Below are positions 15,644 through 18,207 of a stretch of 64,000 bases of DNA, piece after piece; position 1 is the first letter of the stretch; each line of letters begins with the position of its first letter. The DNA comes from Vibrio palustris (GTDB lineage Bacteria > Pseudomonadota > Gammaproteobacteria > Enterobacterales > Vibrionaceae), in assembly GCF_024346995.1 (NCBI RefSeq), contig NZ_AP024887.1, positions 2,294,001 through 2,358,000 of the forward strand, in the 5' to 3' direction. The position numbers were made by a program, and so were the translations under genes. Under the pieces are notes generated by a model. The model saw only the letters and a program-made list of their open reading frames with translations, searched no databases and had not been told where the DNA came from.

Positions 15644-16264
15644 ATGATCATTGCTCCCCTACACAAACTGATTATTCTCGTGTTTACTTGGCTCAATTGC
15701 TGTGCAACTTTCTTACGCTACTTACTGACGGTAGCAACAATACTCTTCTCTAGTCTGGGGTATACTCAAACGATGGCTATCGGTGATGAAATACCATCGG
15801 TTTCGGTTCAGCACTTAGGTGAGATCCACTTACAACAGAAACAAGTCGTCTTTTCACCATGGTCTAGCCGCGCTTTACTCGGTAAAGTCCGTATTATCCA
15901 ATTAGTTCCCGGCAAAGCGGATGCGCGAACATTAAACCAGCACCTTATACACGCGATTTCACGCGCAGAGTTTGATACAACACAGTACCAAACCACGACG
16001 ATTATCAATGCAAATGATGCATTTTGGGGGACAGAGATGTTTGTCAAATCATCGGCAATGGCGCTCAAAAAACAATACTCATGGATGATGGTAATTTTTG
16101 ATGAAAATGGTCAAGTCGCTCAGCGCTGGCACTTAACTCACCATGAGCAGTCCACACTCGTCGTCGATAGGAAAGGGAAGATAAAATTTATAAAACGTGG
16201 TCGTCTTGATGATCATACGATTAATACATTGATACACATAACGAGCGATCTGATTCATCACTAA
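15644..16264 (+). CDS. ytfJ: YtfJ family periplasmic protein
   Basis: Matches E. coli YtfJ over its full mature length, including the motifs LLGKVRIIQLVPG and YQTTTIINANDA (about residues 73 and 110). The fold is thioredoxin-like but I see no CxxC, and its function is not established. The hydrophobic N-terminus (about 8-42) is longer than a normal signal peptide and holds two hydrophobic runs; the true start could be the GTG about 13 codons in. No ATG was found closer to the predicted cleavage near GYTQT. It follows msrA by 45 bases. Confidence 0.85.
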   Translation: MIIAPLHKLIILVFTWLNCCATFLRYLLTVATILFSSLGYTQTMAIGDEIPSVSVQHLGEIHLQQKQVVFSPWSSRALLGKVRIIQLVPGKADARTLNQHLIHAISRAEFDTTQYQTTTIINANDAFWGTEMFVKSSAMALKKQYSWMMVIFDENGQVAQRWHLTHHEQSTLVVDRKGKIKFIKRGRLDDHTINTLIHITSDLIHH

Positions 16265-16302
16265 AATTTCAAAGCTTTTATATATTAGACTATCAAAAAA
16301 TA

Positions 16303-16318
16303 GTAAGTAATTACTTAC
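16303..16318. promoter_or_regulatory. 16-bp perfect palindrome, candidate operator
   Basis: GTAAGTAATTACTTAC is its own reverse complement over all 16 bases. It lies 40 bases after ytfJ, in the 418-base space before the TIGR03899 gene. Its layout (GTxAGT, four A/T bases, ACTxAC) resembles SlmA nucleoid-occlusion sites, but the third base is A. There is no U-tract, so it is more likely a protein-binding site than a terminator. Confidence 0.4.
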
Positions 16319-16435
16319 ATTGTAAGAGCCTTATCTCTATACCAGCACTATAGTGCGGTAACCAACACCTCATTAGTCTATAGGAAGGCAAAAGAACAGA
16401 GTGTGGAGACGTCAGTCGTGTCGACGGATGACGTT

Positions 16436-16534
16436 CTAATAGAGATAGCTCGATAAATAAATTAATACCGCTATATACGACACAAAAATCATCCCTATCG
16501 ATAGATGCTTTCGCGCTTTAAGCTCATTCCTCAT
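16436..16534 (-). CDS. Unannotated 32-residue single-pass membrane microprotein
   Basis: Reads MRNELKARKHLSIGMIFVSY, then a further hydrophobic stretch ending SSYLY and a TAG stop. The first ten residues are basic (two Arg, two Lys, one His) and residues 11-32 form one hydrophobic helix, a layout that predicts N-in orientation in the inner membrane. A perfect GGAGG stands 5 bases before the ATG, better than most genes in the window. It diverges from the TIGR03899 gene by about 150 bases. I do not recognise the family and give no function; the ribosome-binding site and membrane design make it more than a chance frame. Confidence 0.55.
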   Translation of the reverse strand: MRNELKARKHLSIGMIFVSYIAVLIYLSSYLY

Positions 16535-16682
16535 ACTGGCCTCCAAAATGTTTAACAATTTTAACAAACTGTTATCATTTAAGGTAGCGAAATTTATCGC
16601 ACCTGCGGGAGAGTTTTACTGGCTCCTAGGATAATAAACGAGTACATTTTATACATATATATATCTGCTTTCAGGGAAGTCT

Positions 16683-17594
16683 ATGTCAACGTCTAAACCG
16701 CCTGTTGTTATCGATAACGCCGCTCCTGTTGCGGGCGATACCACACCGCAAAACGAAAAAAAGCACGCTAAGAGTAAAGACAGCGCGAGTAGAATTATCC
16801 ATATTGCTCAGCAGCAAGGATTAGACGCTCTATTGGCAGACGAAAAACCAGAAACAACATTAATACAACGAGCGCTAAAACGAGAACGTCAACGTAAAGA
16901 AGTTCGCCAGCGTAATTTAGAAAAAATAATGAAACTGGCATTTGGTGCTTGTCACAATGAATTAGCTGGCGAGCCAGATCAAGATTGGTTACATCGGTTT
17001 TTCGATATGGCCCAAGATATTCATAACTCCTCAATGCAGCGCTTATGGGCACAAGTGCTCAAACGAGAAGTGACCAATCCTGGCTTTACTTCGATGAAAG
17101 CCTTGAAAGTCTTGCAAGACATGACTCCAAAAGAAGCACAAACCATGCAAAGAGCAGCAGCGTTGGCATGCAGCTATGGCAGTGATCATAGCCTTAAACT
17201 GTTGTTTGGCTTAAAAATGCAAAATGGCAGTATTTTCCGCTTTGGCAAACGCAATATGACGGCAACCATTAATATTGGGAATTTCCATCTGCCCTACTCA
17301 AGTTTGTTAGTTCTGATTGAGCTAGGTTTATTGCATGGATCAGAATTAGAATCTGGGGAAATTGAACCAGAGCCGCCATTGACATTGGATTATCAAGGTA
17401 AGCATTTGTCACTGCAAACTCATACCCGGGGAGTGCGCTTATTATACTACCGCTTTACTCCCACAGGGCATGAATTATGTCGATTACTCGGTAATAAGCC
17501 GAACATGACTTATTATGATCAACTTATCGCCTTACTTGGCCAACGGTTTACGGTGCAAACTGACGCAACCAGCAGTATGCACCATACCGTTTAA
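16683..17594 (+). CDS. TIGR03899 family protein of unknown function
   Basis: 303 residues, no signal peptide or membrane segment, so probably cytosolic. The N-terminal 30 residues are low-complexity; a strongly basic helical segment follows (about 62-82, rich in Arg, Lys and Gln), and then a conserved part with FDMAQDIHNSSMQRLWAQVL (about 107-126). I match it from memory to TIGR03899, seen mostly in Vibrio and Shewanella. An AGGGA ribosome-binding site lies 6 bases before the ATG. It is convergent with cysC, only 7 bases apart, without an obvious terminator. Nothing supports a specific role. Confidence 0.8.
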   Translation: MSTSKPPVVIDNAAPVAGDTTPQNEKKHAKSKDSASRIIHIAQQQGLDALLADEKPETTLIQRALKRERQRKEVRQRNLEKIMKLAFGACHNELAGEPDQDWLHRFFDMAQDIHNSSMQRLWAQVLKREVTNPGFTSMKALKVLQDMTPKEAQTMQRAAALACSYGSDHSLKLLFGLKMQNGSIFRFGKRNMTATINIGNFHLPYSSLLVLIELGLLHGSELESGEIEPEPPLTLDYQGKHLSLQTHTRGVRLLYYRFTPTGHELCRLLGNKPNMTYYDQLIALLGQRFTVQTDATSSMHHTV

Positions 17595-17601
17595 ATCATG
17601 A

Positions 17602-18207
17602 CTATTTCGCCACAATACCTCGATTTTGTAAGACATCTAGGCAATGTTGTACTAATTCATCCAGTGTCGCATCTCCCGCTGGCAGATCAATATCTGGATG
17701 TAAGGGCGCTTCATAAGCTGAATCGATCCCCGTAAATTGAGTAATCTCACCTCGTCGGGCTCTCTCATAGAGCCCTTTAGGGTCTCGCTTTTCACACACG
17801 GCTAAGTCGGTATTGACAAACACTTCGATAAATTCAGTCTCTGGAAGCATTTGGCGAACCATATCTCGCTCACTCCGATGCGGCGAAATAAAAGCGGTAA
17901 GCACAATTAAACCAGCATCGACCATTAAAGCGGCTAACTCACCAATACGGCGAATATTTTCACGACGATCTTGTTGAGAAAAACCCAAATCACGGCATAG
18001 CCCATGACGAACATTATCACCATCTAATAAATAAGTGTGATAGCCGAGCTCAGCCAGTTTTACTTCTAGTGCACCCGCAATGGTCGACTTTCCCGCGCCT
18101 GATAACCCAGTAAACCACAAAACGGCAGGTTTTTGTTGTTTCAGGGCCGCCCGTGATGTTTTTGTCACCGAGTGTTGATGCCACACTATCGCCTCTTGTT
18201 CACTCAC
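17602..18207 (-). CDS. cysC: Adenylyl-sulfate (APS) kinase CysC
   Basis: Phosphorylates APS to PAPS, the second step of sulfate activation. 201 residues with P-loop GLSGAGKST at 34-42, the [17 protein letters not shown] substrate region near residue 60, and FISPHRSER, which holds the Ser used in the phospho-enzyme form. The start is GTG with GGAGGG six bases upstream. It follows cysN by 13 bases as the last gene of cobA-cysD-cysN-cysC. Confidence 0.95.

Follow-up and report, generated by a model that had tools for sequence, protein, structure and literature searches.

The window analysed here, a stretch of 64,000 nucleotides of the Vibrio palustris contig NZ_AP024887.1, carries the gene order ytfJ, a short microprotein frame, TIGR03899 and cysC, with the following features at and around the short frame:

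15644..16264, plus strand: ytfJ (YtfJ_HI0045), convergent neighbour of the microprotein gene
16436..16534, minus strand: 32-residue putative single-pass membrane microprotein (from the ORF translation, relatives and dN/dS)
16540..16544, minus strand: Shine-Dalgarno GGAGG, 5 nt before the ATG
16554..16577, minus strand: conserved upstream element TGATAACAGTTTGTTAAAATTGTT (from a comparison of upstream regions)
16566-16558, minus strand: extended -10-like TGTTAAAAT within the upstream element, read as a putative promoter of the microprotein's own
16683..17594, plus strand: uncharacterised TIGR03899/DUF2806 protein (TIGR03899 E 4.4e-100; Pfam DUF2806), divergent neighbour of the microprotein gene
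17602..18207, minus strand: cysC, APS kinase (Pfam APS_kinase E 2.3e-68), convergent with TIGR03899

The short frame runs on the minus strand from an ATG at 16534 to a stop TAG at 16438-16436 and translates as MRNELKARKHLSIGMIFVSYIAVLIYLSSYLY. An ORF check returned exactly the coordinates and the length given in the original prediction, and the remaining features it had described are likewise present: the N-terminus is basic (R2, K6, R8, K9) and is followed by one hydrophobic stretch with a best 19-residue Kyte-Doolittle mean of 2.0, the GGAGG at 16544-16540 ends five bases before the ATG, and the gene next door, in divergent orientation, encodes a TIGR03899 protein. A longer frame that opens with TTG (16436-16567, 43 aa) was set aside in favour of the ATG, which fits the conserved start of the relatives; an ATG occupies that start in 132 of the 133 scored loci, where the script favours ATG if a choice exists and where, from an initial 140 loci, four were without a match and three (L085, L098, L102) were dropped by the script's start rule. 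Family members are about 26-37 residues long, and the window copy, two residues shorter than most of them, keeps the start, the ribosome site and the upstream element.

The original prediction had proposed a search of the peptide against Vibrionaceae, and this search establishes that the frame is conserved. Searched alone at E <= 10, the peptide matched 33 of 61 genomes, that of the window counted among them, and a TIGR03899 gene diverges from the match in all 30 fetched loci, which yield 27 distinct peptides; 23 of these form the alignment A1, four near-identical ones being left out. With the A1 profile at E <= 1e-3 a relative is found in 199 of the 227 genus genomes, six more with matches only at E 0.012-0.08 being scored as lacking it, while the synteny check was confined to the fetched loci; at E <= 0.1 the profile matches 273 of the 329 family genomes. 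A second set, comprising the 80 best loci out of 127 retrieved via TIGR03899, contains the frame in 76 cases and always on the divergent strand, the four misses being a truncated locus (L111) and three loci without a match (L114, L117 and L137, which belong to the genomes G276, G028 and G013). The 30-locus and the 80-locus sets overlap. At E <= 1e-3 the genus tally amounts to 199 genomes with both genes, five with TIGR03899 only, none with the microprotein only and 23 with neither. Four vibrios (G013, G028, G187, G233) have TIGR03899 but yielded no microprotein frame, which indicates that the microprotein can be lost; the fifth (G276, locus L195) holds a diverged candidate frame. Across nine other Vibrionaceae genera, a Vibrio-only profile recovers the frame, in the corresponding position, in 22 of 24 loci at E <= 0.2 (with E below 0.01 for 20), these loci having been chosen from 102 genomes, many for having a weak match; of the remaining two, L183 shows a candidate on visual inspection, whereas L187 shows no frame.

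All 23 members of A1 possess the hydrophobic stretch, and in 72 distinct 34-residue peptides the positions M1, K/R8, K11, L13, L18, Y22, L26, Y28, L29 and S/A30 are fixed or nearly so. The recurrent core of the family is Y-x3-L-x2-L, which is not absolute, as the candidates L179, L183 and L189 deviate from it. Conservation along the helix peaks at 95-100 degrees with a permutation p of 0.10, so that the idea of a single conserved helix face is put forward as a suggestion, a weak claim. The 34-residue members display a basic K8-x-K10-K11 before the helix and little positive charge after it; as positive residues precede the helix and few follow, an N-in topology is predicted, that is, a single inner-membrane helix with its N-terminus in the cytoplasm.

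The original prediction had also held that chance frames seldom combine a strong ribosome-binding site with a membrane-insertion profile, an argument that carries less weight than supposed. The window has 644 ATG frames 20-60 aa long, and the microprotein alone among them combines a strict Shine-Dalgarno with a TM profile; ten first-order Markov shuffles of the window nevertheless contain 0-2 such frames each (mean 0.6), and the observed count is therefore near the chance expectation. Because this combination is weak by itself, the case for a gene rests on conservation. Given that the searches yielded nothing very closely related to the window's species, the best matches being about 50-60% identical, selection was measured on the family and not on the window's lineage, using the 34-codon members instead of the 32-codon copy in the window. 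Pooled dN/dS is 0.28 over 40 disjoint close pairs drawn from 93 distinct 34-codon sequences, versus 1.01 and 1.67 for the two shifted frames counted in the same manner, which bears out the anticipated purifying selection in this frame, with changes mostly synonymous per site. The median over 548 close pairs, which are not independent, is 0.088 with no value above 1, and the codon-position entropies (0.83, 0.58 and 1.52) are highest at the third position. Loss of the frame or of the ribosome site in relatives, named beforehand as a sign against the gene, was looked for, and both persist in relatives at most 50-60% identical, a Shine-Dalgarno-complement match of at least 4 nt at usable spacing occurring in 98 of 103 distinct coding sequences.

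That a mere chance frame overlies a conserved promoter or RNA element is a reading favoured by the expectation of about 0.6 frames with Shine-Dalgarno and helix per window, and also by the strong conservation of the upstream DNA itself; however, a dN/dS of 0.28 is confined to the microprotein frame, and the A1 peptides, which are 34-58% identical to that of the window, retain the same residue pattern. The frame-specific substitution pattern would appear largely to refute this reading, which we regard as extremely improbable, and the frame is almost certainly a genuine protein-coding gene.

The upstream element is a further conserved feature of the locus. Its core, TTGTTAAAATTGTT, is matched at 12 or more of 14 positions in 88 of 99 distinct upstream regions versus 3 of 495 mononucleotide shuffles, and the element ends 19-21 nt before the ATG in 85 of the 99. 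Across the 94 regions with a match of at least 11/14 and a sufficiently long flank, TGTTAA never varies and the TGATAA upstream of it hardly does. When five genomes were scanned with up to three mismatches, the element appeared once or twice in each, the microprotein locus being the best, as opposed to one occurrence of a reversed control pattern in all five together. Of the four loci in which TIGR03899 is present and the frame was not found, three (L192, L193, L194) are without the element and one (L191) retains TTGTTAA alone, thereby tying the element to the microprotein. Within it, TGTTAAAAT reads as a putative extended -10 site and may thus be the promoter of the microprotein gene; the promoter scanner did not report it, since this program requires a -35 hexamer. 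The scanner also gave no terminator-like site in 16250-16750, and none of the Fur, ArcA or LuxR-type consensus sequences could be fitted to the element by eye. A leader-peptide function was rejected because the next gene downstream of the microprotein in the window, ytfJ, is convergent.

Outside Vibrionaceae, TIGR03899 occurs in 97 genomes of the order sample, and we examined 60 of its upstream regions together with 11 further loci of family f6. When the family-wide profile is run on the 60 regions, nine divergent frames rank first and the first frame of the control strand comes tenth (E 0.082). By criteria set after a first look at this ranking, the frame is present on the divergent strand in 19 of the 60 loci and on the control strand in none, and the 41 loci counted as lacking it include L246 and L248, whose candidate frames fall below the criteria. 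Its occurrence depends on the family: 10 of 11 loci in f10, 4 of 4 in f13, 1 of 2 in f11 and 4 of 9 in f25, the last split between genus g25 (4/4) and genus g47 (0/5), as opposed to none in f2 (0/3), f6 (0/3), f7 (0/17), f16 (0/5) and f21 (0/6); the 11 further f6 loci hold no convincing frame. Two further alignments, built from other families, show the Y-x3-L-x2-L core again, and their profile-profile scores (P 2e-6 and 3.2e-5) each beat all 200 column shuffles.

The original prediction could name no match for the microprotein, and indeed no Pfam or NCBIfam family matches it at E <= 10. Its 23 relatives reach no curated cut-off, the best E values being 0.021 for Pfam and 0.0014 for NCBIfam. 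Seven of the 23 give a weak profile match to NF006906 (SecE; best E 0.0014) and one of the 23 to NF041476 (small membrane protein YldA; best E 0.0059), neither of which matches the window's own protein; the weak matches are read as general hydrophobic-helix likeness. A PDB sequence search with A1 returned four weak matches (best E 0.45), PADLOC returned none for the microprotein, its PHROGs match was disregarded as weak (E 0.42), and a protein database search with an f10 relative produced no candidate. No Rfam model reaches its gathering score in 16200-16750; the one sub-threshold match, to a plant miRNA model, scores 19 bits where the gathering score is 72, and was rejected. The microprotein is thus placed by sequence in an unnamed conserved family of tiny, predicted one-helix membrane proteins. 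Its description as overlooked holds insofar as the family has no name, but must be qualified in that 13 of 41 homologous clusters had been named by their source, the names shown being hypothetical or uncharacterized. A relative (P0032) occurs in Vibrio natriegens, a laboratory strain. Among the matches listed for the vibrio small-protein literature, titles and abstract openings held nothing on the microprotein gene.

Small single-pass proteins are familiar from E. coli, CydX among them. The cited passages further describe AcrZ and MgrB as small single-helix membrane proteins of E. coli (PMC7267776, PMC8404706), YohP as a 27-residue small membrane protein of the same organism (PMC7549839, PMC12719787), and 27 small membrane proteins of V. 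cholerae designated as ORFs (PMC10903887), a set that may include a relative. As far as those passages go, AcrZ and MgrB share with the microprotein a small one-helix build of a few dozen residues, whereas family-model matches are here weak at most and the N-in topology is only predicted; YohP resembles it in size and one-helix build.

The TIGR03899 gene is usually co-inherited with the microprotein gene, and each is also found without the other. The expectation that the microprotein never occurs without TIGR03899 failed, as both genomes of genus g36 that lack TIGR03899 keep the microprotein; TIGR03899 is hence not an obligatory partner and can at best be regarded as a functional neighbour. 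In the order, TIGR03899/DUF2806 is common, 116 of the 295 sampled genomes carrying it, and its C-terminal part weakly resembles winged-helix regulators. Second, diverged TIGR03899-like matches below the family cut-off lie at G074:C2:820237-820935, G042:C41:85736-86077, G493:C1:1179662-1179982 and G462:C1:2176468-2176773. Foldseek with the TIGR03899 model found no PDB structure at E <= 0.001, PHROGs gave no match, a PADLOC match to GajB was disregarded as weak (E 0.0033), and a literature search by the name TIGR03899 found no paper, the name DUF2806 occurring in two. One published gene list gives as a pseudogene VC2557, which may or may not be the TIGR03899 gene.

The wider neighbourhood varies. 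Families f10, f11 and f2 each contribute one locus with ytfJ next to TIGR03899: the f11 locus (L299) repeats the window's order with one extra gene before cysC, which we take to be cysQ-like; the f10 locus (L296) has ytfJ in common with the window, cysC not being next door; and the f2 locus (L302) has ytfJ and TIGR03899 with the microprotein absent. A DUF3299 gene replaces ytfJ in the four vibrio loci viewed. In genus g36 (G160 and G161, both of its genomes), a cysC-like gene, so named by sequence likeness, directly adjoins the microprotein, nothing of TIGR03899 being left between them, the profile matches lying at L202 1526-1579 (minus strand) and L203 1581-1634 (plus strand). A 67-residue DUF1107 protein, presumably YtfK-like, is encoded nearby (L202 917-1120), a parallel to ytfK near ytfJ in E. 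coli. The E. coli K-12 region comprises cysQ, ytfI, ytfJ and ytfK, where the annotation gives no small frame, and ytfI, the gene in the syntenic place, was rejected as a TIGR03899 equivalent, YtfI having no likeness to TIGR03899.

By analogy with known small membrane proteins, we lean slightly toward the view that the microprotein is an accessory protein that spans the inner membrane once and packs its helix on a larger membrane partner. The gene would probably be transcribed alone from its own conserved extended -10 promoter, and the product would insert as a single N-in helix; the helix face with Y22, L26 and L29 (then S/A in vibrios) may pack on a larger inner-membrane protein and adjust the activity or stability of this partner, as AcrZ and MgrB do according to the passages cited above. 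CydX likewise acts on a larger inner-membrane partner. This accessory-protein reading is weakened by the fact that no small-subunit family is matched beyond the weak cases above.

The partner might instead be TIGR03899 itself, the microprotein serving as its membrane tether or modulator, with the basic tail binding the cytoplasmic TIGR03899 product and the two divergent genes forming one unit. The two are divergent neighbours at the examined loci that hold both, their pairing recurs in four further families, and the genus tally, in which all 23 genomes without TIGR03899 are also without the microprotein at E <= 1e-3, would taken alone fit such a partnership. Yet a single deletion can remove adjacent genes and the Fisher test is uncorrected for phylogeny; moreover, g36 retains the microprotein, four vibrios retain TIGR03899 alone, and the 41 loci outside Vibrionaceae mentioned above have TIGR03899 without a qualifying frame, all of which leads us to consider the tether unlikely. 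That the TIGR03899 protein binds DNA and regulates the promoter of the microprotein, with the membrane protein as its target gene, strikes us as distinctly doubtful. Peptide toxins are small, with a single helix and a cluster of basic residues, and the microprotein resembles known ones in these respects; a toxic membrane peptide of the type I toxin-antitoxin kind is nonetheless highly improbable in view of the same chromosomal place at examined loci, the wide family occurrence, the purifying selection and the lack of a gathering-score Rfam match in 16200-16750. A long shot is that the microprotein links periplasmic, redoxin-like YtfJ to cytoplasmic, possibly winged-helix TIGR03899 across the membrane in an ancient gammaproteobacterial signalling module; were this true, the module would report the periplasmic state to gene control.

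The gene occurs in 199 of 227 genus genomes, has relatives in four other families and is under purifying selection, with no model or described function found for it. These findings make the microprotein a testable example of a small membrane protein with wide conservation, for which the genomes that have lost either it or TIGR03899 offer natural comparisons for finding its partner.
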